A stretch of 46,418 nt of DNA from a virus: the IMG/VR virus record IMGVR_UViG_3300025101_000041, positions 1 through 46,418 of that record; one strand, given 5' to 3'. The notes under the pieces were generated by a model, which worked only from the letters and a program-made list of their open reading frames with translations, searched no databases and was not told where the DNA came from. Position numbers and translations under genes: made by a program. Shown here piece after piece: positions 1-44,738 of this stretch (position 1 is its first letter; each line of letters begins with the position of its first letter).

Positions 1-210
1 GAATCAGATGGTAGGATATTTACACAAGAAGCATACGAAGAATTATGTGATGCTATTGTGTATTTATCTTCTGTTGGCTTAAACTTAATTAGTAAAGCTA
101 ATACAGAAGATGAAAGATATCACGCACATATGATGGGTAATATATTGTTTAATACTTGTTATCAGACAATTAAATATATGGAGTTGATAAATGATAAAGA
201 AACGATATAG
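1..210 (+). CDS. hypothetical protein, 5' end cut by window edge
   Basis: Frame 1 is open from the first base to a TAG at 208-210, giving the last 69 residues of a protein that starts outside the window. The visible part is mostly helical and acidic (it begins ESDGRIFTQEAYEELCDAIV) and has no motif I recognise. Its end overlaps the next gene by 20 bases, which is typical of the compact operon that follows. Codon use is like that of the neighbours. Function unknown. Confidence 0.6.
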   Translation, partial: ESDGRIFTQEAYEELCDAIVYLSSVGLNLISKANTEDERYHAHMMGNILFNTCYQTIKYMELINDKETI

Positions 211-442
211 AAAAGATGAATTACAATTACTTGCAAAACAGTTTGTAATGAAAAGAATAGAAGGGTTTGAGATAGAAGAACAGCGTAAATATTATCTCGA
301 ACCTAAGTTAGTAGATGAATGGTCATATTATGTTTATTGTACATGGAGAGAAAACACTATGATAAGAGGTTGGGATTTGAAATATCTATATGACACACCT
401 CTTGGTATGCCTGTATATACAATAGATAAACCATTTAAGTAA
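191..442 (+). CDS. hypothetical protein (83 aa)
   Basis: A small basic protein rich in Lys, Arg, Tyr and Trp (WSYYVYCTWRENT near residue 44). It starts inside the end of the upstream gene, with a GGAG seven bases before the ATG. No known domain is seen. It is the last gene before the strong hairpin at 451-491, so it may close the upstream transcription unit. Function unknown. Confidence 0.6.
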   Translation: MIKKRYRKDELQLLAKQFVMKRIEGFEIEEQRKYYLEPKLVDEWSYYVYCTWRENTMIRGWDLKYLYDTPLGMPVYTIDKPFK

Positions 443-450
443 ATAAAATA

Positions 451-491
451 ATTGGATTAGTGGGTTATTATATATAACTTACTAGTCCAAT
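451..491 (+). promoter_or_regulatory. 17-bp intergenic RNA hairpin
   Basis: Bases 451-467 pair with 475-491 over 17 positions, closing a 7-base loop. Three of the pairs are G-U in plus-sense RNA and the rest are Watson-Crick. No T-tract follows (AATAATAAAAAT), so it is not a standard rho-independent terminator. It could be a processing or mRNA-stability element, or a weak terminator, between the upstream genes and the recombination operon. Confidence 0.7.
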
Positions 492-519
492 AATAATAAA
501 AATATAATAAGGAGATTAT

Positions 520-1086
520 ATGAAGTTTAAAGGTAGAGAATATACCGAAGTAAAAGATAGACTTATCGCATTCGCAGATGAGTTTCCACAAGCATCGATA
601 CAGACAGAACTAATTAGTGTAAGTCAAGTTATTGATACACCTACAGGAGAAACCTGTAATGAATATGTTGTAAAAGCAACAGTAATTCCAAATCCAGTAA
701 AAGAACCAGAATGGTTTTATGTGGGTCATGCAGCTGAACGTGATAACACAGGATTTGTAAATAAAACATCAGCATTAGAAAATGGTGAAACATCAGCAGT
801 AGGTCGTGCATTAGCATTTGCAGGATTTGGTGGTGACTTTGCTATTGCTAGTAAAGAAGAAGTAGATAATGCTAAAGCTAAACAAAAGCAAATTAATCCT
901 ACAATTAAATCATTAGAAGCAATGGATAAAGCAGCTAGATTAGCTAATGATGCAAAGAAACTTCCAGAAGATGATTACTTGCGTTATAAACAAAAACGTC
1001 AAGCAGGATTCTTTGATACAAAACTTAAAGTAAGTCAAAGTACAGAATACTTTGAATCGTTAACGAAGAAAAAAGGAGCTAAATAA
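520..1086 (+). CDS. probable ssDNA-annealing / recombination protein
   Basis: 188 aa, with a good AAGGAG site just before the ATG. The central motif ENGETSAVGRALAFAGFG (residues about 87-104), followed by IASKEE, resembles a conserved block I know from phage recombination and annealing proteins annotated as Erf- or Sak-like. The C-terminal 60 residues are Lys-rich and helical, as expected for a DNA-contacting tail. It lies directly before an SSB gene, with no gap, and in the same operon as the primase-helicase and a resolvase, which supports a role in homologous recombination or replication restart. The family assignment rests on one motif plus context. It could be another DNA-binding replication accessory protein. 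Confidence 0.5.
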   Translation: MKFKGREYTEVKDRLIAFADEFPQASIQTELISVSQVIDTPTGETCNEYVVKATVIPNPVKEPEWFYVGHAAERDNTGFVNKTSALENGETSAVGRALAFAGFGGDFAIASKEEVDNAKAKQKQINPTIKSLEAMDKAARLANDAKKLPEDDYLRYKQKRQAGFFDTKLKVSQSTEYFESLTKKKGAK

Positions 1087-1626
1087 ATGGCTATAACTGG
1101 AACAAAAGTGAAAACCAACACTTCTAATAAAAATTGGTTTGTAAATCAATGTCGTATTGTTGAAGCAGAACAAATTGATTCTCAATACAATGACTGTAGT
1201 ATTAGATTAAAACTAGAAGATAAAGACAATGGATATAACTACACTACATTTATCAATCAGAACTTTGAAAAAGATGTGAATGGTATTGTAACTGGTATGG
1301 CATTTCCAGAAGATTTAAACACTCTTTATCTTGCATCTGGAAAAGATATTAACGTATCTGACGTAGGTGAAGTTAATGTTGATACATTAATTGATGGTGA
1401 AGTAGCTGTTATTAATTATGCAGCATCTGGTAAATACAAAAGAGCTACTTGGGGAGTAGTATCTAATCCTAATGATACAGATGAGTTAGAAAAGAAATTT
1501 ATGGCTCAGATAGCAAAAGGTTATCCTAAAAACTATCAACAACCTCAAGAAACAATGGTCGAAGAAATGCTTGGAAATAGAGAACCAGCACAGAAAACTG
1601 AAACTGTTGATGACCTTCCTTTCTAA
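1087..1626 (+). CDS. single-stranded DNA-binding protein
   Basis: 179 aa. The C terminus reads TVDDLPF, the acidic tip with terminal Phe by which bacterial and phage SSBs recruit partner proteins. Upstream of it are a disordered Gln/Glu/Pro-rich linker (about residues 145-172) and an N-terminal all-beta region (about 1-135) that fits an OB fold. The gene abuts the preceding annealing-protein gene and overlaps the next gene as TAATG, so the three are probably co-translated. It should coat ssDNA during phage replication and recombination. The OB fold itself is inferred; the C-terminal tip and context are what I see. Confidence 0.75.
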   Translation: MAITGTKVKTNTSNKNWFVNQCRIVEAEQIDSQYNDCSIRLKLEDKDNGYNYTTFINQNFEKDVNGIVTGMAFPEDLNTLYLASGKDINVSDVGEVNVDTLIDGEVAVINYAASGKYKRATWGVVSNPNDTDELEKKFMAQIAKGYPKNYQQPQETMVEEMLGNREPAQKTETVDDLPF

Positions 1627-1886
1627 TGACTGCTGAAGGTATAATATTAAGATGGATAGACGGTAGAGCTAATTCTTCTGACCCCTGGTTTGCTTCCTAT
1701 GATTTAGAAGCAGAAGTACCAGTGTATGGAAGATTAGCTCATCAAAAAGTACATACCCCAAGTACTTATTCTAGGGCATTTAGAAAGATTCGTGAAAGTA
1801 ATACTTTGATGCGTCTAGGTCTAGAATTAGAAGAGACTGTCATCCCAACAACAAAGGCTAAAGGATGGAAAATAAAGAGACTATAA
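1626..1886 (+). CDS. hypothetical protein, small winged-helix-like
   Basis: 86 aa, starting on the last base of the SSB stop codon (TAATG), so probably translationally coupled. The N-terminal part IILRWIDGRANSSDPWFASY, followed by a Thr/Ser-rich helix (TPSTYSRAFRKIRES), could be a compact helix-turn-helix or winged-helix DNA binder, but I do not recognise the family. Its end overlaps the primase-helicase start by 22 bases. It is likely a replication accessory factor, by position only. Confidence 0.6.
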   Translation: MTAEGIILRWIDGRANSSDPWFASYDLEAEVPVYGRLAHQKVHTPSTYSRAFRKIRESNTLMRLGLELEETVIPTTKAKGWKIKRL

Positions 1887-3652
1887 TTGAAATTATCAAT
1901 GGTAGTGTCTCTAATAGAAATCGCATAGGTACCATCGATGAATTTAATAAGTTAGTTAAAAATAATGCGTGGAATGGTGAGATGTATCGCAGCTATTATA
2001 GCTTTGATGAAACACTAAGTCAACACATGGAAGTTAACAGAACAGTTAAAGGATTCGATGGTTTAACCTATTTAGATTCTATTATATTAGATGTAGACAA
2101 AGGCAATATTGCCGATGATGCATTCCAACCTTATCTGTTGCAATGTCTAGAAGAAATTACAGATTTAGGCATTGACAAATCTCACGTGAATATATGGTTT
2201 AGTGGTAATGGATATCATGTAGAACTATTAAATGTATTTGGATTTCAACCCAGTAGGTTATTACACGAAAAAGTAAAACTTACTATGAAAGAACATTTAT
2301 CATTTGCAGATAGTATATTTGATAAAACACGTATCATTAGAGCACCATGGAGTTTAAACAAAAAGACAGGACTATATAAAGTGTTTATTCCATATAGTCT
2401 TATCTGGAATCTTAAGTACGATGATGTTAAACATATGGCTAAAGATTATAAATCATATAAACACTGGAAAGAAGATGGTTGGTACGACACATTAAATGTT
2501 GATAAAGAAGTAGAACCATACTTACAAAACTTAATCGTTTCTACGTCACAAGCAGTTAGCACTGGTGGATACAAAAGTAAAGATACTACGTCAGTAGTTA
2601 CTTGTATGCAACACGCTTTCAATGAAGGACCAATAGAAGGACAACGTAATATGAAAATGATGCGTATGTCTAGCACCTACAAAAGAGCAGGTGTTCCTTA
2701 TGTAGTTGCTTTAAATGGTATGCTGCAATGGTCTAATGGTGCTATGGATGACGAAGAAGTAATTAGAACTGTAAGTAATGTATTTGATGGTAACTATCAA
2801 TATGGCTGCAATGATGTAATTATGTCTGAATATTGCGACCCAAAGTGTATTCATTTCAAAAGAAAAGATTATACATTGGATATCAAAAATGTAAACGATA
2901 TGACTAAATCATTAGTAGAATATTTGCAAAATGATATTACCAAGAAGTCAATTAATATGGCTGATATATTTAATTGCCAAGACTATATTATAAAACCAGG
3001 AGAATTAGTTGTATTTTCTGGTGATACTGGTATGGGTAAATCTGCATTTGTACAAAATGTAGTAGTAGGAGCACTTAAAGATACATTGTTCTTATCATTA
3101 GAAATGAATGAATTTCTTACATTTAGAAGGTTTGTTCAAATAGCTAATAAGAAAACAGAAGGATGGGTTGTAGACCAAGTAAAGTCTAATCCAGATATAT
3201 CTTTTGAAGAACAATTAGGTCATATACAAGTAATGACAATAGCACCAGAAATAGAAGCTATTAAGAAGGTAATTGCTACGCATGAACCTAACATCTTAGT
3301 AGTAGATACGACTGATGAGGTGCACGTTGATAGAGTAGAGTCTGAAATACAAAGACAAAACATTATCATTGGTGCACTAAAAGAAATGGCACAGAAACAT
3401 AATATAATTATTATAGCTGTGCATCACGTTAACAAGATATCTGCAGCAGGTAATACTATAGCATTACATTCATTGAAAGGTAGTACTAATGTAGTACAGA
3501 AAGCAGACAAAGTAATTATGGTTAAAGGAAATCGTGACGAAAAAGCTAGAGTAATATCTAGTGAGAAATCAAGAGATGATGGCAAATTTGAAATGACAGC
3601 ACTCTTTGATTACGAAACAATGACCTTTAGACAAGTTGATTGGAGTCAATAA
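1865..3652 (+). CDS. primase-helicase (AEP-type primase fused to DnaB-like helicase)
   Basis: 595 aa with two domains. The N-terminal domain (about 1-230) has archaeo-eukaryotic primase signatures: the metal-binding pair ILDVDK (D76, D78), SGNGYH (113-118) and RAPWSLNKKTG (159-169). A Cys/His set, C315, C324, C328 and H330, may bind zinc between the domains. The C-terminal domain is a RecA-fold, DnaB-type helicase, with Walker A GDTGMGKSA (386-394), Walker B ILVVD (477-481) and a conserved AVHHVNK (518-524). It would unwind the fork and lay primers. The order primase then helicase recalls T7 gp4, but the primase is of the AEP class, not DnaG/TOPRIM. No DNA polymerase gene lies in this window. 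Confidence 0.85.
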   Translation: MENKETIIEIINGSVSNRNRIGTIDEFNKLVKNNAWNGEMYRSYYSFDETLSQHMEVNRTVKGFDGLTYLDSIILDVDKGNIADDAFQPYLLQCLEEITDLGIDKSHVNIWFSGNGYHVELLNVFGFQPSRLLHEKVKLTMKEHLSFADSIFDKTRIIRAPWSLNKKTGLYKVFIPYSLIWNLKYDDVKHMAKDYKSYKHWKEDGWYDTLNVDKEVEPYLQNLIVSTSQAVSTGGYKSKDTTSVVTCMQHAFNEGPIEGQRNMKMMRMSSTYKRAGVPYVVALNGMLQWSNGAMDDEEVIRTVSNVFDGNYQYGCNDVIMSEYCDPKCIHFKRKDYTLDIKNVNDMTKSLVEYLQNDITKKSINMADIFNCQDYIIKPGELVVFSGDTGMGKSAFVQNVVVGALKDTLFLSLEMNEFLTFRRFVQIANKKTEGWVVDQVKSNPDISFEEQLGHIQVMTIAPEIEAIKKVIATHEPNILVVDTTDEVHVDRVESEIQRQNIIIGALKEMAQKHNIIIIAVHHVNKISAAGNTIALHSLKGSTNVVQKADKVIMVKGNRDEKARVISSEKSRDDGKFEMTALFDYETMTFRQVDWSQ

Positions 3653-3834
3653 TGATAAGATTGGACACAGTAAATAACTCAAACATAATAATGCAACGCA
3701 TTACATTGTTATATTTATTCCAATTTGGTGTATCATTTCAAGAAGAGGAAGGACAGCATTTTTGTATTATATTTGCTGTAGGACCTATTGAATTAAACTT
3801 TACATTGAGGTTATGGAATGGCACACAGAAATAA
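3652..3834 (+). CDS. hypothetical protein (60 aa)
   Basis: The start is taken at 3652 because it forms TAATG with the upstream stop and has GGAG seven bases ahead. An in-frame ATG 12 bases earlier lacks such a site. The product begins MIRLDTVNNSN and has a hydrophobic middle (ITLLYLFQFGV) but no clear membrane segment or motif. Its end overlaps the resolvase gene by 17 bases. Function unknown. Confidence 0.55.
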   Translation: MIRLDTVNNSNIIMQRITLLYLFQFGVSFQEEEGQHFCIIFAVGPIELNFTLRLWNGTQK

Positions 3835-4147
3835 AATACGTGGTAACAACCTAGAACGTGAGATTGTTAACGCAGCTAAAGAGGAAGGGCTCTCTGCAAA
3901 GAGGGCCTATGCCTCTGATGGTAGGTCACTAGGATTTAGTGAAGTAGTTGATTGTCTTGTTGAGGATTGGACCATACAAGCAAAACGTAGAAAGAAAATA
4001 GCACAATGGCTATATCCAGATTATCACGGCGATGATGTAGATGCGGTGGTAACAAGGATGGATAGAAAAGAAGCGTTAATTATAATGCCTCTTGGAAAAT
4101 GGATAAAAATGATGAAGGAGATAAAAGATGGCGAAAGTAAATCTTAG
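3818..4147 (+). CDS. Holliday junction resolvase-like nuclease (Hjc type)
   Basis: 109 aa, matching the size of Hjc-like resolvases. The PD-(D/E)XK core is visible: an N-terminal helix NNLEREIV with E13/E15, a basic stretch SAKRAYASDGRSLG, then VVDCLV with D45, then IQAKRRKK with Q54-x-K56 in place of E-x-K. Q-for-E at this site occurs in some families of the superfamily, but it is worth noting as a departure from the archaeal consensus. It would cleave four-way junctions or branched replication intermediates before packaging. It sits in the recombination operon, overlapping both neighbours. Confidence 0.7.
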   Translation: MAHRNKIRGNNLEREIVNAAKEEGLSAKRAYASDGRSLGFSEVVDCLVEDWTIQAKRRKKIAQWLYPDYHGDDVDAVVTRMDRKEALIIMPLGKWIKMMKEIKDGESKS

Positions 4148-4370
4148 TAAAGAAGAAGTAGAAGAAGTGTTAAGTGCTTTGGCTAATTTAATTACTATAA
4201 AACATAGGTATAGAGATATACATTTAGATGTTAATGTAGAAATGATTAGAGAAGTATTACATAAATTAGAAAATCCTTTTATGGTAGATTACAATAAACA
4301 AAATAAAATTATAAGAGGATTAGAAGATAAACAACCTAGAATAGGGAATTGTGAGTGTTGCGATGACTAA
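4128..4370 (+). CDS. hypothetical helical protein (80 aa)
   Basis: Starts 20 bases inside the end of the resolvase gene. The first half (LSKEEVEEVLSALANLI) is an acidic helix and the C terminus ends CECCDD, with three cysteines in four residues. The N-terminal pattern is echoed by the next small gene (FTKEELLIMRSALLNF), suggesting the two are diverged tandem relatives. Function unknown. Confidence 0.55.
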   Translation: MAKVNLSKEEVEEVLSALANLITIKHRYRDIHLDVNVEMIREVLHKLENPFMVDYNKQNKIIRGLEDKQPRIGNCECCDD

Positions 4371-4506
4371 ATTCACTAAAGAAGAATTGTTGATAATGCG
4401 TTCTGCATTACTTAATTTCAAGAAAGCACCTTGGGTATCACCAGGTGAGCATAAAATTATTAAGAAAATGTTAGAAAAAATTCACGAACTATTTGAAGAA
4501 GAATAA
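4363..4506 (+). CDS. hypothetical helical protein (47 aa)
   Basis: A short gene whose ATG overlaps the previous stop by 8 bases. The product MTKFTKEELLIMRSALLNFK... ends IHELFEEE. It shares the pattern (S/T)KEE-x(4-6)-SAL-x-N followed by a Leu/Glu helix with the preceding 80-aa product, so they may be a duplicated pair. It is too small for domain assignment. It is followed by the structured region at 4511-4633. Confidence 0.5.
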   Translation: MTKFTKEELLIMRSALLNFKKAPWVSPGEHKIIKKMLEKIHELFEEE

Positions 4507-4510
4507 TCAT

Positions 4511-4633
4511 TATTCCCCCTCACTATTAACACGCTTTGAAGGAAGCGGGTGGTGCAAATCCATCTTACCCTTAAAAGCAAATACATCTTGGTTGGCACTG
4601 AATGTATAATATATTAACAATAGAGGGGGAATA
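4511..4633 (+). ncRNA. candidate structured RNA (four-way junction) upstream of groES
   Basis: The closing stem P1 is 11 perfect pairs, 4511-4521 with 4623-4633 (TATTCCCCCTC / GAGGGGGAATA), extended by TATT 4524-4527 with AATA 4619-4622 after a 2-base bulge. Inside are three hairpins. P2 is CGCTT/AAGCG (4532-4536, 4543-4547). P3 is GGTGG/CCATC (4548-4552, 4560-4564) with a 7-base loop TGCAAAT, like a tRNA T-loop. P4 is ATACAT/ATGTAT (4581-4586, 4602-4607). P2 and P3 abut and could stack. P1 ends two bases before the AAGGAG of groES, so it could control groES translation as a cis element, or be a stable RNA of its own. The folding is read by eye and no known riboswitch was recognised. Confidence 0.6.
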
Positions 4634-4646
4634 GTAAGGAGACGAT

Positions 4647-4895
4647 ATGAAACCATTAAGAAATGAAGTTGTAATTAAGCAGCAATCTAAAGACAATAAA
4701 ACAGAAGCTGGTATTATATTAACAACTGATGAAGTAATAAAAGAAAATGTTGGCGTAGTTACTGCTAAAGGTAAAGATGCCGATGAAGTAGAAATAGGAG
4801 ATAAAGTATTGTTTGGTCCAGGATTTGTAGTCCAAGATATAGATAAACAAGAAGTTTTGTTTATGAGTCAAGACAATATACTTTGTGTTCTGTAA
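4647..4895 (+). CDS. groES: GroES-like co-chaperonin
   Basis: 82 aa, a short Cpn10. MKPLRNEVVIKQ matches the first strand of GroES (IRPLHDRVIVKR). EAGIILT (20-26) matches the mobile-loop GGIVLT that docks on GroEL. VGVVTAKG, IGDKVLFGPGF and EVLFMSQDNILCVL match the remaining core strands. It is about 15 residues shorter than E. coli GroES; the region corresponding to the roof loop is trimmed. No GroEL gene is visible, so it probably caps the host GroEL, as T4 gp31 does, to help fold the capsid protein or another large virion protein. It has a strong AAGGAG five bases before the ATG and lies directly after the structured RNA. Confidence 0.9.
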   Translation: MKPLRNEVVIKQQSKDNKTEAGIILTTDEVIKENVGVVTAKGKDADEVEIGDKVLFGPGFVVQDIDKQEVLFMSQDNILCVL

Positions 4896-5272
4896 TGGAT
4901 TATAATTCTGATTTCCAGTATGATTTAAAATTTGGTCAAGAAGGAGAAACTGAAATAGCTGCATTATTAAATGATTGCAATGTTGAAGTTAAACGTGACA
5001 GACAAACTCAAAAGACTGGTAATGTATACATAGAATACGAATCAAGAGGTAAAGCATCTGGTATTGCAACTACTAAAGCTGATAAATGGGCTTATATATT
5101 GCAAGATGGTTGTATTTTAATTGTAAACACAGAATTATTAAAAAAAGCATTGCGATATCTAATTAAAGCTAGACTTTGTGTTAAAGGTATGCCTGGCGGT
5201 GATAACAATACATCGTTAGGTGTGCTAGTAAGTGTAGAAAGATTAATGGAAGGAATAAGGAGTGTCAAATGA
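4895..5272 (+). CDS. PD-(D/E)XK-type phage nuclease
   Basis: 125 aa from the ATG that overlaps the groES stop (TAATG). An alternative start 12 bases upstream adds MCSV. FGQEGETEIAALL (13-25) is the N-terminal acidic helix. VEVKRDRQTQKTGNVYIEYESRGK (about 30-53, given here as adjoining motifs VEVKRDR and NVYIEYES) holds the candidate catalytic D35, E47 and Lys residues. ASGIATTKADKW (54-65) is a block I associate with small phage nucleases of this fold. It probably acts in recombination, host DNA breakdown or branch clearing, alongside the Hjc-like protein. The exact substrate cannot be told. Confidence 0.65.
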   Translation: MDYNSDFQYDLKFGQEGETEIAALLNDCNVEVKRDRQTQKTGNVYIEYESRGKASGIATTKADKWAYILQDGCILIVNTELLKKALRYLIKARLCVKGMPGGDNNTSLGVLVSVERLMEGIRSVK

Positions 5273-5509: not shown

Positions 5510-8500
5510 TTAATCGTCATTTTCATTCTGTTTTCTAAGTTCTGCTAGTATATCTTCTAATTCTTCCTGTTTAAAGTAATCTCTAGAGTATGCATGAACT
5601 TTATGTAGCGGCAATCCTGTTAGAAAGTCTGGTGCCATAGCTGGAGACTTAATAGTTCTATAAATATCTTTACTTAATCTACCAAATGGAAAATATGTAT
5701 GAAATTGATAATTCCAGAATTTATCATAGTTACCATTAATCATTGCAGTTAATGGAGGTAATATAAATCTACTTACTGGTGGTGTAACAATAGCTAATGG
5801 TGCTAGTGATGGATGAGGGTATTGACTAAAAAATGCTCTATCTTTCATTTCTTCATCACCAAATATTAATTCAGAAGTATCTTGCATCCAAGACATAGGT
5901 GGTGATAAAGCATATTCAAATATAGATGATGCAAATATATTAGCCATAGCTAATGCAAATACATCTGCTGTAAATTGATTGTTAGCTCTTTTTTTCTTCA
6001 CTTCATTGTTCCATATTTTTTGATTAGCACCTTGACCATATATATCTATTCTTCTACCAATACTATTCCAAGCGTAAGGATGAAAACGTGTCATAATTCT
6101 ACCTAGATTAGTGTTAGAGAAATTAGGTCTTTGAGTTGCGTGATAAACAAACTGTGATGCTTTTACAGATTTTCTAGCAATGTTTAATATAATAGGGTCA
6201 TTAAAAGCCATATCTTTTGTAATTTCTGGTCCCAGTATTTGTCTTGCATTAATGATAGAAGCTAACGCAGTCCTGGTTCTTAATACCATTTCAGATTTTT
6301 TCATAAAAAATGAACCAACATCAGTCAAACCTTCTACAACACCAAGTTCTTTAATAGCTTCTCCCATTGTTCTTGAATGTAATGCAGCTGCTTCTTTATC
6401 ACTCATATTTAAATAGTTATTACCTTTGGCGTCTTTTTCTCCAAGTATTTTTCTAACTATTAAATCTCTAATACGACCCCTATCTACTTGTGCTTTCTTT
6501 TGACTGTAATAACCTTCAGTAACAAGACCATCTTCAATAAAACCTTCTCTAAATAACCAGTCTATAATATCGTTATAACTTTGTATTTCCACTTTTTTTC
6601 TTTTACCTTGAGCGTCTACAGTGTAATAGAAAGAACCTTTTAAGAAAACATTGTTTAATAACCATGCTTCATTATTTGCTTTTCTAAATGAAGACCAACC
6701 TTCGTCAACAATAGTGTTAGAAAAACCGCCATAAAAATTAGTTATAGCTGATTTAGGGTGTGATAACAAAGATACCATTTCAAATTTACCTTCTAGCTCA
6801 CTCCAAGCTTTTGCTTTACGTACTAACCAATATCTTCTAGCTGTTCCACTTTTAGGTGCATCTTTTAATATATTACCACCAAAAGCATCATTAATTCTTT
6901 CAAAAAATCCTACTACAGCTTCATCACTAAATACATCATAAGCAGTATTAAATCTACCTATTTTGTTTATATTTTCTGGTTGTAATATTTCTTTTAAATT
7001 GTTTTTTCTAAGATTTAATATAGCATTTGATTTTTTTGCAGGGTCTGTTATTGCATCTACTTGTGCTTTCTGTGCTTTTGTTAAACCAAAATTGACGTCA
7101 ACTAAATCTAAAAATCTTAAATCTGGATTACTTAAATTACGTTTTTCTTTCATTTTTTTTCTATCTAAACCTGAATCTATATAAGCTTGAATTAACATAG
7201 CTTCACCTTTTTTAATACCATGAAGGTTAAAATTACGCAATGAAGGAAATCCATTGTTATTACTAAATACATCTAGTATATATGAATGCCATTGTTTATT
7301 TAAATCCATTCCTTCTTTATCTTTACCAAAAGGATTCTTTTCTAAGAATTGGTCTGCAATAAGTTTTAATTTTATGTTTTGTACTTGTCTTACCCAACTA
7401 CTATATGTTGCTTGTAAATAACGTTCTGTAGCACTAAAGTCTGTTCTCCATCCTGGAAGTTCATCTACACTTCTAGAGTTTACAATGTTTCTATTGCTAT
7501 TATCTACTTGTATCTCAGGTCTAGTATTTAATAAACGTAAACTAGATTCTTCACCTATAGAAAGTTCAAGGTCAACACCAGTAATCATTTCTTTGTCATA
7601 AAATTCTTTATAAAATCTTTTTGTTAATGCTATAGCAACATCTTTACTAATTAAACCTGCTTCATATTCTATTCTAACACCGCTTGGTAATTTTTCAACT
7701 ACAAATTTTTCACCATTTTTTCCTATTACTTCATTTATTTTTGATTCTATTTTCTTTTTAATATGTTCTTTATTTACATCTCTTAAACCTTGAAAATCCA
7801 TACCTCCAATATGTGGAACATAGCTATCTACTTCTCCAGTTTTTTCGTTTATAAATCTACCTAAACCTATTCTAGTATTTATATTATGTAATTCATTAAT
7901 TCTTTTTAAAACTGTTTGTATGCTTTCTGCTTTACCATTTACAGTAATTCTAGGTTTTTCAAATTCTTTTTTACTCAATTCTTTATTAAAGTTTACATCA
8001 GGAAAATGTGTTTTTAACATATCTTTTACTAATAAGTTATGTTCTATAAAACGTGCATCTGCTACAGAAAATGTTTCTCTTAATATTTGTTCTACATTAC
8101 CTGGACCTAAATCTAAAATACCTTTAAAAATAGCATCTATTTTTTTAACGTCTGACATAATACCATTCTTGTCAAACAATAAACTTTTTAATTCATTAAC
8201 TTCTGCTTGAATTATATTAGAAGTATTGTTTTCTACTTTACTTAAATCTACACGTTCATTTTCTGGAATATTATATCTGTCTGTTTCAAAACCTGCTTGT
8301 TTTAATTTTCTACGTATTCTAGGACCTTTACTTACAATAACATCATTATAAACTTTAGTCATAATTTCCGTATATCTTTGATTCATCAAATCTAAAACTT
8401 CGTATGCTCCTACTTTTTTTGTTTTACCAGGATTTGCTGGGTCTTTAATTTCAAATTCTACTTTTTCTTTTACGAGTGCATCTATTAATTTCTTTTTTGC

Positions 8501-11500
8501 TAACCACAATTTTTTAATATTAGCTTGTGCGTCAACAGATTTTCTTAAATATATAGGTCCTTTACCATCGGAATATTCACGTCTAAACTGCATACCGCTA
8601 TATAATAAATCAAAATGTGTACCAATTAAATTACCACTATCTAAAGTTGCCCAATCAAAATTTTCTTTTAACAAAATATCTTTAGTCCATCTATTAAATG
8701 TGTTTTGTATTTGATGGAATGTATATTGTATTTCATTACCATATCCCAAAGTAGTAGTAGGAACTTTACCAGATTTAAATGTTATGTTTCCATTCTTATC
8801 TTTTACAATATTATCTACTCTTTTAAATGTACTATCTTTTTCAAATTCTGTAGCTCCAGCTATATATTCTTCTGTATAACCTTTACTTAATATATGGTCT
8901 CTACCTGCAGGTCCTCTTCTTACTTTAGGGTCATAAAAGAAACTTTTAATCCAACCTGGTGTAGTAACTGCTTCTATATAATTCATCAATGATTGCAGCT
9001 CTTTTATTGTAATTTCTTCAAAAGGTTTACCTGTTACAACACCACCTTGAAAAGATTCATACAATGGCTCTATATAATCTTTAATACCAGGTCTGCTTTC
9101 TAATAAACTGTGAAATTCTAGCATTGTAACAATAGATTCTTCAGTTATATTAGGGTCATTAGCTTTTTTTAATAAAGCATCTTCAATGTTAAAGTCTTTA
9201 ATTTTACCATAATCTGATTTTTTAATTTGTATTTCTTCAGATAACGTAGGTTTTTCTATATCTTTTTCTATTTCTTTAACAGCTGGTTCTTCTTTTTTAT
9301 CTATTTCTTCTTGACGTCCTCTTGACTTTATAATAAAACTGTCTAATTCATAATGAAATCTTCTAGTGCTTTCCTTGCTTATACCAGGACTTTGAAATAT
9401 TTGGTCAAATTTTCCTTGTACGTCATTTAAAATACCTTTTTGTACTCTGTATAAATTATCTAAATGTGGACCATCTCCATACTTTTTATATTCTCTTTTA
9501 ATTTTTTCAGACATTTGTTTTAATCTTTGCAACTCAACGTTTAATTCTACTTTTTTTCTACCTTTACCAGATATGTCCATTTTTGAAAATGATTCTGGAA
9601 CTACATTTCCAAGTAATGCAAAGTCATAAAACAACTCTAACTCTTTTACTATATCCTCTTTTAATCTAGAGTTTTTATAACCAAAAGATTCTACATAACG
9701 TACAAAACCTTGTTTTTGTGCTGTAATATATTTAGTAACATTTAAAGGATTAATTTCTTCCCCGTTGTTAGCTGTATTAGTATTCATTTTGTTTAATAAT
9801 AAATACGATTGTCTATTTTGTATTTTTAATTCATATGCCCTGTTTGTTATTTCTTTTAATATGTCAATGCCTTTTCTACCTTGCAATTCTGGTATTTTAT
9901 TTAATATTTCTAAAACTCTTTCTCCTTGTTTTACCATTAAGGTTATACCAATAATTTCATTTAATCTTGCTTCTAATTTTGTAGGGTCTGAAGACAATAT
10001 ATCTTTTTCATTTTGCGATAAACTTGTAGAGTAATAATCTATTAATTTCAAATTTTTTAAAATAGGACTATCTTGAATATTTTTTTGAGCACCTTCCATA
10101 ATACCTATTAAATTTTTTACATCAGCATAATTAGTATAACTAAATGGTGATAAATCAAACTCCTCATACTTAGCTAAATTTCTAGCTATTTGTGTATAGT
10201 AATTATTAATAGGAGTTCCTTCATTGTTTTTATCAAAATAATTTAAAAAGTCTCTAGACACTTGTACAATTTCAGTAAGGTCTGCTTTATCATTTAACAT
10301 TCTGTGAAATTTTCTAAAAGCTTGCAATCCAGAAGCTCCATATTTATCTCTAAACATAGAATAAAAAGATAAATTGTAAGAACCCACTGCTTCACCTTCA
10401 AACATTATGTCAAAGTCTACACCTAATTCTATTTTATTTTTAGGTCCATATATTTGGTCAGCGTTTGGCAATTCTGTAAGATTAGGGTTTCTATACTCAA
10501 AAAAATCGTTAAATATTTTTGTCAAACTATCTCTTGGTTTTAATATGTTTTTATAACCTGCACTATCAGCGTGTATATTAGAACCTACAATAGAAATTTG
10601 TTTTAATCTTTGAAATCCAGGATTATTTTCTTTTAATATAATTTCTGCACCATCTCCTAAATCTATTTTACCACCATTTTCTTTAGCCATTTGCATAAAT
10701 ATTTGTAGTTGAGTAGTACCATTTATAATTTGACCCATACCACTTTTACCATCGTAAGATGTTTCACCTATTCCTAATCTTGTTCTAGTACTAAACATTT
10801 TTGATATATCAGAAGGAGCTTCTTCAGCACCAAAATATCTAATAGCAATGTCTAAGCTACCATCTTCGTCTTTTAATGGATAAAGGTCTCCGTTTTCTTT
10901 TTCAAATTCACGTTGTATTTTTTTGTTAGCAAAAGCATCTTTTATATTTTTTGGAAGTGATTGATAACCGACAACCTTATCTCCATCTTTATCCATACCA
11001 CCTTTCATTAAATCATTATATTCATTTGAATAATAACCGTGACTTCCTCCGTCTTCAATAAATCCACCAAACTCCAATATTCTAATTGCTCCATTACTAG
11101 AACTAGGTGAACGCATAATAGCAAAAGCTAATGCATCTTTAACTTCCCTGTATCCTTCTGCACCAGGAGCAAGTTTTCCACCAGGTTTAATTAAATCCCA
11201 CGCTTCTCCTAATGTCATTTCTTCTTTTGTAATTTCACCAGTTTCTTTATTAATTCTTTCTATCAATACAGGGTCAGTTTTAGCACCAGAACCTCTTTTA
11301 AATTCTTTTGTACGTATACCACCTTCTGCCATTTGTTGTTGTGAAAAAGGATATGCAACAGCATGAAAACCTGTTTCCACGTTTAACCTGGTGCTTCTGT
11401 ATATTATGTAATTACCCAAAATTCTATTCAATAAAGGTTTGTTACCCTCTCTCATTAAATAAGATATAGCATAGTCTGCACGTTCAGCACCTATCATAAA

Positions 11501-14500
11501 ATTATTTGTTTTAGTAATTTCTGCCATATCTGCCAATACATAAGTTTCTTTTAAAGCAAAATCTTCAGATTGAGTTTTTCTAAATAACTGTCTTGCTGCC
11601 CATCTACCAGAAGGCGAATCTAAATTTTCTTGTATTTCTTTAACAATAACCGTTGTATCTAACTTGTCTATATCTATATCAGACAAATCTCTTCTAGCAA
11701 ATTTATCAGAATCTTTAGCTAATTCTAAATATTTTTCTGTTAATTCTTTGTCGCCAACTAAATTTTCATTACGTAATGCAGCCATAGAATCAAAAAACTG
11801 TTCATTGAATATTGGTCTACCTGCTTCATCTAATTCTAAGCTAGTGTTTTTATCTATAAATTGTTTGTATAGTTTTATATTACGAGTTTTTACTTTTTCT
11901 TTTACATCTACGTTTATACCTATTTCGTTTGGCCTTACTTTAAATACAGTTTCTTTACCATTAGATTTGTATTTACCAGAAGCTACATCGTATGTCATTT
12001 TACCTGATTGTATGTTACCTCTTTGTTTAGCAGCAGAATCATACATAAGCATATGTCTGTTATTTTCTACTAAATAATCGTTCATTTTATTATCTGCTCT
12101 ATATAAACCTGCTTTTAATTTTACATGACCAGCTCCATTTCTAGGTGATGTATGACCTACAGGTTTCATAAAAAAACTAAAAGAATCTATATCATATATT
12201 TTACGCATTCTATCAAAGACATCTTGTCTAACATATATAACTCCGTCTAATGCAGACTTTTCACCTTTAGGATTAAATGGAGGAGGGTCTTTCATTATTG
12301 ACATATTAAAGAATCCTTCTTGTTCAACTTTACTTAGAGGGATTCCAAGTAATTCAGGTATATCTTTTATTGGTATAGGCAAATCTATACCCTGCGATAA
12401 TGGTTGATATTTATTAATTTTTGCGGCACTTTGTGGAAAATTATTTTTAGGATTTAAATAAGTTCTTAAAGCTTCTTTAACTTTTCCAAAATCATTTAAT
12501 TCATTTCTAGTAATTAAACCATTGTCTAGCAATTCGTAAATTGCATTAGCAGTAGTTTCTTTATATTCTATTTTATTTGTTTTTTCAGAACCTGGTGCAT
12601 ATTCTTGTATAACTTGGTCTAAAGTTTTAATGAATGTATTTATATTATAATCTTTATTAAAAGGTAATTTTTGTATAACAATCATACCCGAATCTTTGTT
12701 AGCACTATGTATATATTGATTAGAATCTTTCATAAGTTTTTGATTCATGTCCATAAAAAATTCTACACCTTCAGCACCAAAAGGTTCTATCAATTCTTTT
12801 TTAGTAGGTTGTTCTTCTGTTTTTTCTTTTCTACCTGTTTCAGGATTAAATTCTTCTTTAACAATAGGTTTTTTATCTAAATCAGGAACTTCTCTTTCTA
12901 TATATCTCAAAACAACTCTTACTCTATCGTCTCCGTACATTTTACTATATTTATTAGGAGCTTCTTTAACTAGTATTAAATTTCCTTTAGAGTCAGATTC
13001 TCTACCACCTGGTCCTATTTCTTGTACAACATCATTGACATCTAACATTATATTGTTACCTAATCTGTAAGTAACTTTTTTCATAAAAAATTGTTTAAAT
13101 CCTTTAGGTATATCTACTTCTGGATAAATTTCCTTAAACCCTTTTACAAAACCTTCATAGTTATTTAAGTTTTCATTTATTTTTGTAGTCAAATCTCTAG
13201 CTAAATCTTCGTATTGTAGTGAAGGATATTTTTCTATAATTTCATTATATAAAGTTTTTGTAATAGTATCTTTAACTATATTGTCATTCAAATCTTGAGT
13301 TTTAATTTCTCTTATAATTGTATCAAATCCATCTAATACAGGTCTGTTTGAATCATCTACATTTTCTTTTTTAACTTGTTCGGTGTCTTTAATTTCTTTT
13401 TCTATACGTTCTTTAAATGAAGACAACTTAACTTCTACTTCTTCTTTATTTAAATTTAAATATTTAAAATCTTCTTTTAAAGATTCTGATAATGCTTTAT
13501 GTTGTTCTGGAGTTATATTTTCTAAGTCAATATTTTCTTCTTGTGCTTTACGTACATACTCTACACCCATCAAATCGTATGCACCTTGTATTTTATCTTT
13601 TTGCTGAACATACAGCTCGTTAAAATGTCTATCTATGTAATCTTTAGATTCTTTTGGTAGTTCTTTATATTCTTTTGTTTTTAATAAACTTTCTTTTGAT
13701 TTTGCTAAATTTGCATCACCTGGTATAGGGTTTGTAGCTAAAAATTTAGTAGCTTTATTTTCTGCTACTGACCTTCCACTAGCACCAAAAAAGAATCCTA
13801 ATGCATACTCATATATTTGTTCTGGCAAAGGCATCTGGTGGTAACTAGCTAAACCACCTGTGTAAGCAGAACCTAAAACACCTCTTGCAAATAAATTTTG
13901 TACAGCTTCTTTTTCAGTAGGTCTTTGAATCATTTTACGAATAGCTTCTTCACCTAATTTTTTTGTGTTAGGATTAGCCAATAGTTTACCAATGTTGACA
14001 TATTCTGATATACCACCAAATACAGCACCTGCCATAGCACCATGCATAGCAGACTCTACCATACCTGCAGGACCTTCTTTTCTAGCACTTACACCTAATG
14101 CTATACCAAGATGTATACCATCATGTGCAACTTTTCTAAATTGTTCGTTTCCTAATAAACCTTTATTTAAAAATCCCGATGCCAATAAACCATTTTTATC
14201 TAAAGATTTTTGTGCATTATCTATTACAAAATCAGATATACGCATTGGTACTGACCTTAGAAAGAATTGTTTTTCACCTGTTAAAGGATTAATACTTTCT
14301 TTACGTAAATCAAAATTACCAATTTTTAATCTTTCAGCAATCTGTTGTGTCTTTTTACTATATGCTTTAGTACCACGGTCTAAAAGTTTTTTAGTCTGCA
14401 TAGCACCGCCTTCTTTAATAGCAGTATATCCTACACCTTTACGAATTTGTCTTCTTACTATAGAAGCAGGTAGAGATGCACCCATTGTCATAACACCAGC

Positions 14501-14839
14501 AAGAACGTCAGGTGCTAAACCTACCAAGTGTCCAACTTTATTAGCTATAGATTCTTTAGAAGTATCTGCGTCATCTGCCCATCCGAAAGTAGTAAAACCT
14601 TCAGCAAATCCAGATACAAATTGATTTAAAACAGAACCAAGGGATTCTTCTGCTGCAACCATGTCTCTATTAAATGGAACATCAGCAGCTTTCATAACAC
14701 GTTCTATATAATCTGTGTCATTTGCACTAAAACCAGTAGGATTGTTTTGATATGCTAAGTATAAACGATTTACATAATCGTTTTGACTTATCGTTCCTCC
14801 CTTAACGAGCTCATTTAAATAACGTAATTGGTCGTTCAT
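5510..14839 (-). CDS. giant virion ejection protein with two-barrel RNA polymerase signatures
   Basis: 3109 aa, the largest gene here. Residues 100-128 are hydrophobic and Gly/Ala-rich. Around 865-941 lies a block SALDGVIYV, FMKPVG, VKLKAGL and MYDSAAKQRG (K892, K907, K909, K938) that fits the lysine-bearing first barrel of two-barrel RNA polymerases. At 1242-1246 is MRSPS and at 1282-1289 MDKDGDKV, giving D1283-x-D1285-x-D1287. In beta' subunits, RAPT precedes the catalytic DFDGD by a similar distance (about 36 residues; 40 here). The middle (about 1500-2300) is Lys/Glu-rich and helical. The C terminus (about 2690-3109) has LLSHPKSAITNFYGG and hydrophobic helices near 2960, like ejected internal proteins. 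It overlaps the upstream ejection gene as TAATG. The virion role rests on context; the polymerase role is an inference from the motifs. Confidence 0.6.
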   Translation of the reverse strand: MNDQLRYLNELVKGGTISQNDYVNRLYLAYQNNPTGFSANDTDYIERVMKAADVPFNRDMVAAEESLGSVLNQFVSGFAEGFTTFGWADDADTSKESIANKVGHLVGLAPDVLAGVMTMGASLPASIVRRQIRKGVGYTAIKEGGAMQTKKLLDRGTKAYSKKTQQIAERLKIGNFDLRKESINPLTGEKQFFLRSVPMRISDFVIDNAQKSLDKNGLLASGFLNKGLLGNEQFRKVAHDGIHLGIALGVSARKEGPAGMVESAMHGAMAGAVFGGISEYVNIGKLLANPNTKKLGEEAIRKMIQRPTEKEAVQNLFARGVLGSAYTGGLASYHQMPLPEQIYEYALGFFFGASGRSVAENKATKFLATNPIPGDANLAKSKESLLKTKEYKELPKESKDYIDRHFNELYVQQKDKIQGAYDLMGVEYVRKAQEENIDLENITPEQHKALSESLKEDFKYLNLNKEEVEVKLSSFKERIEKEIKDTEQVKKENVDDSNRPVLDGFDTIIREIKTQDLNDNIVKDTITKTLYNEIIEKYPSLQYEDLARDLTTKINENLNNYEGFVKGFKEIYPEVDIPKGFKQFFMKKVTYRLGNNIMLDVNDVVQEIGPGGRESDSKGNLILVKEAPNKYSKMYGDDRVRVVLRYIEREVPDLDKKPIVKEEFNPETGRKEKTEEQPTKKELIEPFGAEGVEFFMDMNQKLMKDSNQYIHSANKDSGMIVIQKLPFNKDYNINTFIKTLDQVIQEYAPGSEKTNKIEYKETTANAIYELLDNGLITRNELNDFGKVKEALRTYLNPKNNFPQSAAKINKYQPLSQGIDLPIPIKDIPELLGIPLSKVEQEGFFNMSIMKDPPPFNPKGEKSALDGVIYVRQDVFDRMRKIYDIDSFSFFMKPVGHTSPRNGAGHVKLKAGLYRADNKMNDYLVENNRHMLMYDSAAKQRGNIQSGKMTYDVASGKYKSNGKETVFKVRPNEIGINVDVKEKVKTRNIKLYKQFIDKNTSLELDEAGRPIFNEQFFDSMAALRNENLVGDKELTEKYLELAKDSDKFARRDLSDIDIDKLDTTVIVKEIQENLDSPSGRWAARQLFRKTQSEDFALKETYVLADMAEITKTNNFMIGAERADYAISYLMREGNKPLLNRILGNYIIYRSTRLNVETGFHAVAYPFSQQQMAEGGIRTKEFKRGSGAKTDPVLIERINKETGEITKEEMTLGEAWDLIKPGGKLAPGAEGYREVKDALAFAIMRSPSSSNGAIRILEFGGFIEDGGSHGYYSNEYNDLMKGGMDKDGDKVVGYQSLPKNIKDAFANKKIQREFEKENGDLYPLKDEDGSLDIAIRYFGAEEAPSDISKMFSTRTRLGIGETSYDGKSGMGQIINGTTQLQIFMQMAKENGGKIDLGDGAEIILKENNPGFQRLKQISIVGSNIHADSAGYKNILKPRDSLTKIFNDFFEYRNPNLTELPNADQIYGPKNKIELGVDFDIMFEGEAVGSYNLSFYSMFRDKYGASGLQAFRKFHRMLNDKADLTEIVQVSRDFLNYFDKNNEGTPINNYYTQIARNLAKYEEFDLSPFSYTNYADVKNLIGIMEGAQKNIQDSPILKNLKLIDYYSTSLSQNEKDILSSDPTKLEARLNEIIGITLMVKQGERVLEILNKIPELQGRKGIDILKEITNRAYELKIQNRQSYLLLNKMNTNTANNGEEINPLNVTKYITAQKQGFVRYVESFGYKNSRLKEDIVKELELFYDFALLGNVVPESFSKMDISGKGRKKVELNVELQRLKQMSEKIKREYKKYGDGPHLDNLYRVQKGILNDVQGKFDQIFQSPGISKESTRRFHYELDSFIIKSRGRQEEIDKKEEPAVKEIEKDIEKPTLSEEIQIKKSDYGKIKDFNIEDALLKKANDPNITEESIVTMLEFHSLLESRPGIKDYIEPLYESFQGGVVTGKPFEEITIKELQSLMNYIEAVTTPGWIKSFFYDPKVRRGPAGRDHILSKGYTEEYIAGATEFEKDSTFKRVDNIVKDKNGNITFKSGKVPTTTLGYGNEIQYTFHQIQNTFNRWTKDILLKENFDWATLDSGNLIGTHFDLLYSGMQFRREYSDGKGPIYLRKSVDAQANIKKLWLAKKKLIDALVKEKVEFEIKDPANPGKTKKVGAYEVLDLMNQRYTEIMTKVYNDVIVSKGPRIRRKLKQAGFETDRYNIPENERVDLSKVENNTSNIIQAEVNELKSLLFDKNGIMSDVKKIDAIFKGILDLGPGNVEQILRETFSVADARFIEHNLLVKDMLKTHFPDVNFNKELSKKEFEKPRITVNGKAESIQTVLKRINELHNINTRIGLGRFINEKTGEVDSYVPHIGGMDFQGLRDVNKEHIKKKIESKINEVIGKNGEKFVVEKLPSGVRIEYEAGLISKDVAIALTKRFYKEFYDKEMITGVDLELSIGEESSLRLLNTRPEIQVDNSNRNIVNSRSVDELPGWRTDFSATERYLQATYSSWVRQVQNIKLKLIADQFLEKNPFGKDKEGMDLNKQWHSYILDVFSNNNGFPSLRNFNLHGIKKGEAMLIQAYIDSGLDRKKMKEKRNLSNPDLRFLDLVDVNFGLTKAQKAQVDAITDPAKKSNAILNLRKNNLKEILQPENINKIGRFNTAYDVFSDEAVVGFFERINDAFGGNILKDAPKSGTARRYWLVRKAKAWSELEGKFEMVSLLSHPKSAITNFYGGFSNTIVDEGWSSFRKANNEAWLLNNVFLKGSFYYTVDAQGKRKKVEIQSYNDIIDWLFREGFIEDGLVTEGYYSQKKAQVDRGRIRDLIVRKILGEKDAKGNNYLNMSDKEAAALHSRTMGEAIKELGVVEGLTDVGSFFMKKSEMVLRTRTALASIINARQILGPEITKDMAFNDPIILNIARKSVKASQFVYHATQRPNFSNTNLGRIMTRFHPYAWNSIGRRIDIYGQGANQKIWNNEVKKKRANNQFTADVFALAMANIFASSIFEYALSPPMSWMQDTSELIFGDEEMKDRAFFSQYPHPSLAPLAIVTPPVSRFILPPLTAMINGNYDKFWNYQFHTYFPFGRLSKDIYRTIKSPAMAPDFLTGLPLHKVHAYSRDYFKQEELEDILAELRKQNENDD

Positions 14840-15996
14840 TAATCGATTACGTTGTCAATTACGTTTTTATCATTACTAGGGTGTGTTAAATCTAGTGCAT
14901 TTAACTCAGTCATAACATCAGTTTTTTGATTTTTCTTTCCATATACCTGGTCTCTTGTAAGTTCACCTATAACACCTGTTTCGTAATAATCGTCAAAATT
15001 AACTATTACTTCATTTTGTCCTCGATATGTCTTTAGATTATCTTCCGTACCATATTGTTCTATTAAACTTAGTATATCGTCAGTAGGTTTAATAAGTTTT
15101 AATTTACCCTCTATTTTTTCTTTAGTAGCTAAAGCATTAGGCATATTCAAATTTAACCCCGAAGATATTTCAGATGCAGGGCCTTGTAAATTTATAAGCA
15201 AAGCTCCTCTATCTTTTAAATATGCATTTATAGCGTCTTGTCTTGTACCTAATAGTGACATACCTGCAACGTCTTCATAACCTTTACCAACAGCTCCTTG
15301 GATTTCAGCTGTCGTTTCCAAAGCATCTGCAACAGCTGGTAGTGCTAACGCTGCAGTCAAAAAATACCCAGCTCCTCTAACAGCTGGATGTGGTGCCGCC
15401 TTTGATGCTCCTGCAAGCCAATTAAGAGATAAAGCAGCAACACCTGCCGTTCCAACACCTTTTCCAATGTCTCCTAATTCGTAATCAAATATCTTTTCTC
15501 CACCTAAACCTTCCATGTCTTGTAAATCTGTAATATTTAATTCTCCGTTTTGGTCTTTTAACAATAAACCTTCAGCTGCATTTTTAACTTTTTCTCCTGC
15601 TTGTTCATTTCTAGTTAAATTTTCCATAAAAATAGTACCATCTGATGTCAATCTAAATGATTCTGATTCTCCAAGTGCAGTAATTTTTGCTTCTGCTATT
15701 CTTACCTTAGCTCCAAACTCTAAATCCTCTATTTCTTGTTTACGTTTTTCTTCTCTTAAAGCTATCATATCTGGGTCTGTTGCCATAAATTTATTTTGTG
15801 CTTGATATAATGCTAACGCTGAATTGTTATTTTCTATAGCCATTGCTTTTTCGTGTTGAAACTTTGCTTCAATCATAGATTTTTCAAAAGCCATAGTTTC
15901 TAATCTATCTTGAGCTTCTCTATAAGGTTCATTAAATTCTTTTAACGCACCTAAAATTTCAGAAAGATTCATTATAGTTTCTCTAGTTCTACTCAT
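14839..15996 (-). CDS. internal virion / ejection protein
   Basis: 385 aa. The first 110 residues are a charged helix rich in Glu, Lys, Gln and Ala (FEKSMIEAKFQHEKAMAIEN). Residues about 170-215 hold two hydrophobic Gly/Ala segments (GTAGVAALSLNWLAGAS and GAGYFLTAALALPAVADAL) that could insert in the host membrane. It sits between a Gly-rich membrane-active protein and the giant protein, with TAATG coupling to the latter, in the position of T7 gp15. It probably helps to form the DNA-ejection channel. No sequence family was recognised. An internal ATG at residue 9 is a possible alternative start, but the first ATG has the better GGAGGG site. Confidence 0.6.
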   Translation of the reverse strand: MSRTRETIMNLSEILGALKEFNEPYREAQDRLETMAFEKSMIEAKFQHEKAMAIENNNSALALYQAQNKFMATDPDMIALREEKRKQEIEDLEFGAKVRIAEAKITALGESESFRLTSDGTIFMENLTRNEQAGEKVKNAAEGLLLKDQNGELNITDLQDMEGLGGEKIFDYELGDIGKGVGTAGVAALSLNWLAGASKAAPHPAVRGAGYFLTAALALPAVADALETTAEIQGAVGKGYEDVAGMSLLGTRQDAINAYLKDRGALLINLQGPASEISSGLNLNMPNALATKEKIEGKLKLIKPTDDILSLIEQYGTEDNLKTYRGQNEVIVNFDDYYETGVIGELTRDQVYGKKNQKTDVMTELNALDLTHPSNDKNVIDNVID

Positions 15997-42799: not shown

Positions 42800-43108
42800 A
42801 TGTTAATAGATTTAAATATTCAGTTTAAGCGTTTTAAGAAATCAAAAGATGATAAAGGTAATGTATCATATGATGTGCTACCATTGACTGCTAAACAAGC
42901 AGGTCATGGTTCATTAGTTCAAGTTAGAGGCGTAGAGAATGATAAGCAATCTGCTTATGAAACAGCAGTCAATCAACATCTGCTTGCTTCAAAGGAATTG
43001 CGTATCTACGACTTCAAGTATGATAAGCAGTATAAACAGTTATCAGGTGTAGCATATGTTGCTAATACTGGTAGCACTACTAATGTATCAGTTGAAGTAG
43101 AGGATTAA
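42800..43108 (+). CDS. hypothetical protein (102 aa)
   Basis: A beta-rich protein (MLIDLNIQFKRFKKSKDDKG, then a Gln/Ala-rich middle, then VAYVANTGSTTNVSVEVED). AAAGGA nine bases upstream. First gene of the right plus-strand block, so likely early. No family recognised. It could be a small DNA-modulating or anti-defence protein by position, but nothing in the sequence shows this. Confidence 0.6.
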   Translation: MLIDLNIQFKRFKKSKDDKGNVSYDVLPLTAKQAGHGSLVQVRGVENDKQSAYETAVNQHLLASKELRIYDFKYDKQYKQLSGVAYVANTGSTTNVSVEVED

Positions 43109-43114
43109 CTTCAT

Positions 43115-43146
43115 AGTGTGTAGAGGCATTCGTGTCTCTATGCACT
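43115..43146 (+). terminator. 14-bp hairpin with UUCG loop
   Basis: 43115-43128 pairs with 43133-43146 over 14 positions; three are G-U in plus-sense RNA and the loop is TTCG. Such tetraloops are very stable in RNA. It starts six bases after the end of the upstream gene. The following TTTAAAT is a poor T-tract, so it may be a terminator of moderate strength or a 3'-end-protecting hairpin. Confidence 0.65.
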
Positions 43147-43190
43147 TTAAATACCCTACAATTAAAAAAATGTAATAAAAGGAAAAAACT

Positions 43191-43424: not shown

Positions 43425-43427
43425 TAC

Positions 43428-43534
43428 ATTAATAAGCATTGTCTAACAGATAGTCATAATCTTACAAGAGAAACTTTATGTATTGTAAGGCATAAAGCAG
43501 GAATCTATCTTATAAAGGGACAATGCTTGTTAAT
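43428..43534 (+). ncRNA. candidate structured RNA, nested long stem
   Basis: The outer stem is 16 pairs, 43428-43443 with 43519-43534 (ATTAATAAGCATTGTC against GACAATGCTTGTTAAT, one T-G). Inside are AGATAG/CTATCT (43448-43453, 43505-43510) and CTTACAA/TTGTAAG (43461-43467, 43483-43489). The three nest in order and form one long branched rod of 107 nt. The G-U pair points to plus-sense RNA. A terminator lies 130 bases downstream. Confidence 0.55.
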
Positions 43535-43544
43535 AGAATTACAT

Positions 43545-44736: not shown

Positions 44737-44738
44737 AT

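Follow-up and report, generated by a model that had tools for sequence, protein, structure and literature searches.

The window analysed here is the whole of the virus record IMGVR_UViG_3300025101_000041, a stretch of 46,418 bases. Its long minus-strand genes run from position 42115 down through those for the terminase (39770-41254), the portal and the capsid to a giant open reading frame (ORF), the last long gene of the run, which encodes a protein of 3109 amino acids (aa) and 354 kDa without a single cysteine. We propose that this giant is very probably an ejection protein and that its middle part is a DNA-dependent RNA polymerase with two barrels in a single chain, belonging to the branch of crAss phage phi14:2 and the RNA interference (RNAi) polymerase QDE-1, injected into the host and transcribing the early genes of the phage. 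Our confidence in this reading derives from the fold search.

The predicted polymerase would comprise two double-psi barrels (DPBB). The first (DPBB-B, beta-type) carries the blocks DGVIYV (residues 865-870), MKPVG (891-895), VKLKAGL (906-912) and SAAK (935-938; a second SAAK stands at 804), and the second (DPBB-A, beta'-type) carries MRSPS followed by MDKDGDKV. All of these had been pointed out in an earlier note on this DNA, and each lies at the residue given there; the order on which that note relied, R-x-P-[S/T] and then D-x-D-G-D, is present, and R-x-P-[ST] followed by DxD[GI]D at a gap of 30-50 residues arose in only 1 of 2000 shuffles of the giant protein. The same note had taken the upstream blocks for a lysine-bearing first barrel, and they do match, in order, those of a 13-row alignment of crAss-type RNA polymerases (D-A-Q, Q-P-x-K, later V-K-V-G), in which Y-R-x-P-T and G-S-D-F-D-I-D-K, the counterparts of the second-barrel motifs, come next. 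DPBB-B is reported to supply two lysines in two-barrel polymerases (PMC4996933). Both barrels lie in one ORF and D865 to K938 span 74 residues, a distance that we judge too short for a sandwich-barrel (SBHM) insert inside DPBB-B; the single-chain branch (crAss gp66, RNAi polymerases and YonO) is described as having no SBHM domain there (PMC7824862).

By scanning IMG/VR, we obtained 24 further contigs encoding a giant protein of this family (25 with the window), which form three groups with core identities to the window of about 45-97%, 27-33% and 18-23%. Eight of the 25 contigs measure 41.7-51.1 kb, one 89 kb, and 16 are shorter; 18 ORFs, among them that of the window, have both ends within their contig, with 2996-3412 codons between stops. 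The two motifs named by the earlier note proved to be conserved in these homologs, R-x-P-[S/N] (written thus because asparagine can replace serine) and DxDGD being retained in 25/25. Most contigs were first fetched with patterns that contain these motifs and six with motif-free patterns: motif-free scans returned 13 contigs, all with the motifs, of which seven were already in the query alignments, and the six new ones (L005, L097, L100, L102, L103, whose N-terminus is truncated, and L105) have the motifs in 6/6. A scan for DxDGD gave 56 stretches, namely 10 of the family, one piece of a beta'-type RNA polymerase (L051) and 45 excluded by eye on ORF length and context, and a pattern scan of genome contigs gave 203 matches, none of them confirmed. 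In the full-length alignment, D865, G866, K892, P893, R1243, P1245, D1283, D1285, G1286 and D1287 are invariant (18/18), as are Y1292, Q1293, K1365, G1369, N1373 and D1425; K938 is found in 9/18 as machine-aligned and in 18/18 only after a two-column gap was shifted by eye.

The middle of the giant protein is predicted to adopt the fold of two-barrel RNA polymerases, as judged from structure-search matches and predicted secondary structure in models for which neither templates nor crAss sequences were used. The first of them, covering residues 582-1762, was of middling quality (predicted local distance difference test [pLDDT] 64.6, predicted template-modelling score [pTM] 0.45); with a threshold of E<=1e-3, it had a single PDB match, the virion RNA polymerase 6vr4 of a crAss phage (VIA-align Z 10.9). 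A second model, of residues 803-1487, built with 20 sequences, reached pLDDT 75.2 and pTM 0.73, and Foldseek matched it at E<=1e-3 in the PDB to 6vr4 (5.1e-7) and QDE-1 (7y7r, 5.1e-6) only, the AR9 non-virion RNA polymerase coming next (E 2e-3). Among the best 50 of 604 Foldseek rows, 49 are RNA polymerase entries, a count that includes a mitochondrial RNA polymerase of another fold (row 19) and an expressome chain taken as beta' by its length (row 18); the exception is a cyclophilin (row 12). VIA-align aligned the second model with QDE-1 at Z 14.0-14.8, with a best root-mean-square deviation of 4.3 over 399 residues (end points: model 10-647 on chain 672-1141), with the plant enzyme RDR2 at Z 11.9-14.0, with P23-45-type gp64/gp62 at 11.6-11.8 and gp96 at 10.2, and with the largest subunits of cellular and viral RNA polymerases at 9.0-9.8. 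In BFVD, 21 matches have E<=1e-3; the top ones are unnamed entries (E 1.7e-24 onward), and the 21 also include a protein of phi14:2 (4.9e-4) and, under the label DNA helicase, proteins of crAss phages cr118_1 and cr50_1. The model thus matches two-barrel RNA polymerases, in keeping with the double-psi barrels foreseen by the earlier note.

Comparison of sequence profiles gave a fainter signal. With our family alignment A7, from which L001 (a near-copy), L066 and L069 (close to others) and L072 and L074 (with inserts) were left out, hhalign aligned both barrels with crAss over one segment of 373 columns and, in a further segment that keeps the same order, the bridge-helix block, pairing the probable bridge helix of the giant protein with the crAss GKxxxGIxAN block. 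Alignment A4 matched crAss by the DxDxD block alone (P 0.21), and HMMER, run with the core against the 13 crAss-type sequences, gave a best E of 0.0012 at 7 bits, on which we do not rely. Because sequence scores against crAss are weak, the kinship is argued mainly from the fold and the motif order. In 50,697 phage records, tblastn of the core found just two records of one phage (E 5), and neither the core of the second group nor the C-terminal 999 residues matched anything. The N-terminal, core and C-terminal parts had no significant match in N4 virion RNA polymerase (vRNAP), in P23-45 gp96 or in the giant proteins of Roseobacter phage CRP-810, Microcystis phage Mel-JY34 and a Desulfofustis phage, the best figure in this comparison being E 0.012 at 3 bits.

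That the giant protein is carried in the virion is presumed from its gene position and its want of cysteine. Cysteine is absent from 18/18 full-length family members and from the products of the four genes directly upstream in the operon (14839-17785; 385, 207, 217 and 165 aa), which may mark a whole ejection module. The vRNAP of N4 has no cysteine in 3500 residues, nor have its two neighbours (66 and 16.5 kDa), and P23-45 gp96 has none in 5002; for N4-like phages, two papers note that the giant virion polymerase is free of cysteine and connect this with injection (PMC3915230, PMC2784036). The earlier note's assignment of the gene to the ejection module is backed by gene order, taken from genes alone, in three other phages: CRP-810, Mel-JY34 and the Desulfofustis phage, which share a distantly similar capsid protein with the window, each encode a cysteine-free giant of 1577-2016 residues without DxD[GI]D, adjoining a protein of 349-487 residues.

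Several results weigh against the proposed reading. In sequence, searches of the giant protein against Pfam, PHROGs and, by phmmer and profile, the PDB gave no significant match to a known polymerase; the hhalign comparison of A7 with crAss has a probability of 1.4% (P 0.038), and controls scored as high in 0/200 column shuffles and in 8/100 block shuffles, so that the score owes much to a single block. In structure, the Foldseek TM-scores are moderate (0.44 and 0.37), 6vr4 is absent among the best 50 VIA-align rows for the second model, and VIA-align itself carries the warning that Z 14 was attained by five models, mostly helical, for which there was no clear match. Among the candidate catalytic residues, K1288 is lysine in 12/18 full-length members and is not conserved, K1430 is lysine in 4/18, which leaves the trigger-loop lysine without a conserved counterpart, and no conserved basic residue was seen near D1425 in the 18 rows of the trigger-loop region, where the placement of the loop is uncertain; such a residue, lysine or histidine in the superfamily, is reported as a lysine for QDE-1, RDR2 and phi14:2 (PMC8713982). 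As for cysteine, 14.0 would be expected in the window's giant at the rate of 21 late genes, but the resulting probability of finding none (7.9e-7) is too strong because the gene set was picked afterwards and large structural proteins are cysteine-poor; the tail fibre of the window has 3 in 1493 residues. The trait is neither universal, since the phi14:2 polymerase has two cysteines, nor exclusive, since 7/43 other large ORFs share it (three giants at the same position, two crAss-type polymerase pieces, one tail fibre and one unassigned ORF), a count from which the family fragments L066 and L050 were moved out and five loci (of phi14:2, P23-45 and N4) excluded; the 24 ORFs that it assigns to the giant family comprise several fragments of single proteins, for which reason the family figure is given for the 18 full-length ORFs. 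Finally, no shared early promoter motif was found in the regions of plus-strand genes, and the short repeats considered for this role looked like ribosome-binding sites or chance.

Three other explanations were weighed. The one that fares best, which we nonetheless consider unlikely, is an injected two-barrel polymerase that mainly primes or copies DNA at the start of replication, in a PolD-like or primase-like manner. Two-barrel DNA polymerases (PolD) exist (PMC4996933), N4 vRNAP reportedly also serves replication (PMC2784036), and among the window genes scanned (some small ORFs were unscanned) a primase-helicase but no DNA polymerase was recognised, an absence that is weak evidence because the record may be incomplete. 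However, it is RNA polymerases that come closest in structure, the best 50 of 604 Foldseek rows contain no chain of PolD, and the giant gene sits in the late block. It is very unlikely, in our view, that the two-barrel domain is degenerate and non-catalytic, serving in DNA binding or structure while host RNA polymerase reads the early genes: the missing conserved basic residue of the trigger loop and the divergence of sequence past detection would fit, but the three aspartates, R-x-P, K892 and the K, G and N of the bridge helix are kept in 18/18 though identity falls to about 20%, and sigma-70-like sites in the two regions of plus-strand genes, both strands counted, are no commoner than in shuffles (33 against 28.9, standard deviation 5.1, and 25 against 26.7, standard deviation 6.3). 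That D-x-D-G-D arose by chance in an ordinary ejection protein, as an EF-hand-like calcium loop or similar, is scarcely credible, for although DxD[GI]D by itself appeared in 204/2000 shuffles of the giant protein, the residue that follows it is K, T or Q in 18/18 and not the G that an EF-hand has at this position, and both the fold searches and the conservation speak against it.

If the giant protein is an injected RNA polymerase, as we favor, it would be made late, enter the virion during assembly, pass through the tail as a thread with no cysteine to lock its fold, and refold in the host. The two double-psi barrels would then form the active site, in which D1283, D1285 and D1287 would hold magnesium, faced by K892 and K938 of the first barrel, and the enzyme would transcribe the plus-strand early genes while the genome enters. 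Ejection with the DNA and early transcription are proposed by analogy to N4 gp50 and P23-45 gp96 (PMC12633501, PMC10770324). N4 gp50 is described as having a probably membrane-spanning N-terminal part, a central polymerase and a large C-terminal part (PMC12633501). A weak match of residues 2875-2944 to NCBIfam NF032893 (PLxRFG; E 0.0034, its 15.9 bits lying far under the cut-off of 100) was set aside because of its weakness and because it was undetected in two relatives.

Features of the window, with the giant gene and its predicted parts
Feature	Position	Strand	Basis or remark
Plus-strand genes, mostly small, presumed early	191..5272	+	
Primase-helicase	1865-3652	+	
RusA-like resolvase	3818-4147	+	
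GroES-like co-chaperonin	4647-4895	+	phrog_3188, E 1.6e-14
Giant protein, predicted to be ejected and to contain a two-barrel RNA polymerase	5510..14839	-	ORF, composition
C-terminal part, residues 2600-3109	5513..7042	-	among the most conserved parts of the giant
Probable bridge helix, residues 1351-1387, K-x-x-[MV]-G-x-x-[IV]-N	10679..10789	-	predicted helix, hhalign pairing, conservation
DPBB-A (beta'-type barrel, predicted), about residues 1179-1296; boundaries approximate	10952..11305	-	model and structure search
Putative metal-binding D-x-D-G-D block MDKDGDKV, residues 1282-1289	10973..10996	-	motif and conservation
R-x-P-S block MRSPS, residues 1242-1246	11102..11116	-	motif and conservation
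DPBB-B (beta-type barrel, predicted), about residues 860-945; boundaries approximate	12005..12262	-	D865-G866, K892-P893, S-x-x-K938; predicted strands
N-terminal part, residues 1-800	12440..14839	-	boundary chosen by us; one of the three hydrophobic stretches of the giant lies here (residues 102-130)
385-aa cysteine-free neighbour	14839..15996	-	placed like internal virion protein D (381 aa) of CRP-810
Three cysteine-free late proteins, 207, 217 and 165 aa	15998..17785	-	possible members of the ejection module
Small genes, taken to be early; candidate templates for the injected enzyme	42800..46376	+	

Some relatives differ from the window in ways that touch the polymerase region. In both L002 and L005, a stretch of about 115 residues with a FEVSTKGDN-like start is inserted ahead of DPBB-B, following the equivalent of window residue 836, and a similar stretch lies in L074 between DxDGD and the bridge helix; it is missing from the window copy and has no Pfam match at E 0.1. 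This insert looks mobile because it occupies two different polymerase sites in different relatives. In L072, a cpYpsA SLOG domain (PF12694, E 3.7e-12; L072:11280-11729) separates the DxDGD block from the bridge helix, near the insert site of L074. Contig IMGVR_UViG_3300030329_002114 (L080/L104), with 88,986 bases about twice the size of several relatives, may represent a dimer, or else a phage of larger size. L051, excluded from the family by length and context, is a beta'-type RNA polymerase piece (RAPT...MDFDGDKV); its open frame has 739 codons and lies on a viral contig of 73,212 bases.

The other genes of the window give some indication of the kind of phage. Its TerL, portal and capsid belong to phrog_38, 156 and 1328, whereas those of phi14:2, our sole yardstick for Crassvirales markers, belong to phrog_6681, 6547 and 11589 (the TerL of both also matches phrog_2); by these markers, the phage is therefore not a member of Crassvirales. 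The terminase matches 739 phage records, with identity below 26% in the best 30 of 739, and 27/739 are Bacteroides phages, not sorted by order. The portal has weak matches to 63 records, 39 of them Helicobacter phages, a Paracoccus phage having the best E among the matches listed, and the capsid has five, the best being CRP-810 and Mel-JY34 at 29%. A metallophosphoesterase (phrog_221, 21961-22728) lies in the late block, and a gene of this PHROG also stands among the structural genes of phi14:2. The window genes scanned include no recognised GroEL, and no terminal repeats were found by exact comparison of the ends or with a sample of exact 20-mers from the initial 400 bases.

These data point to a new lineage of presumably injected two-barrel polymerase, in which a crAss/RNAi-type enzyme is set in an N4-like layout. 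In the titles and abstract openings of the literature on crAss-like phages, P23-45, YonO, jumbo phages and N4, few subscription journals among them, we found no description of this family, which may already be listed in the two-barrel alignments of PMC10770324. If the reading is true, injected two-barrel RNA polymerases extend beyond crAss-like phages and one group of Thermus phages to a further lineage, whose polymerase is invisible to the sequence libraries tried; the onset of infection by such phages may not depend on the RNA polymerase of the host, and a deeply diverged branch would be added near the phage and RNAi polymerases. It also suggests a cheap screen for hidden injected enzymes, namely folding, domain by domain, of cysteine-free giant late proteins. 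More tentatively, a single chassis (an ejected N-terminal part, a central polymerase, a large C-terminal part and no cysteine) may have been filled independently by two unrelated folds, T7-type (N4) and crAss/RNAi-type, and the polymerase would then be an exchangeable cassette. The hint comes from the cysteine-free giants without DxD[GI]D at the same place in three phages with a related capsid protein; as there is no significant homology to other giants, the idea is drawn from position, size and lack of cysteine.

Among known systems, YonO of SPbeta is likewise a single-chain polymerase described as a distant relative of multisubunit RNA polymerases, but it is of about 100 kDa and prophage-encoded. 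QDE-1 and RDR2 are also single chains and give the best VIA-align matches (Z 11.9-14.8), and RDR2 is reported to carry DLDGD (PMC8713982); they differ from the giant in being eukaryotic RNAi enzymes that act outside virions. The layout is closest to that of N4 (Schitoviridae) gp50, with 3500 aa, a central polymerase between large flanks, no cysteine and two cysteine-free neighbours, yet gp50 is a T7-type polymerase (PMC12633501) without significant hmmsearch match to the giant, whose model fits two-barrel enzymes. P23-45 gp96 (Z 10.2) is, like the giant, a two-barrel RNA polymerase fused to a cysteine-free giant injected protein, but its polymerase is described as the N-terminal portion of a tape measure protein with 5002 aa, in a Thermus phage with a long tail (PMC10770324). 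Finally, phi14:2 gp66 (6vr4, taken as Phi14:2_gp077 on the basis of its 2180 aa and DFDID motif) differs from the giant in size, in its two cysteines and in having DFDID in place of DKDGD, with no convincing sequence similarity, but it is the best Foldseek PDB match of the giant's model and shares with it a single chain, two barrels, the same motif order and a gene placed among structural genes.

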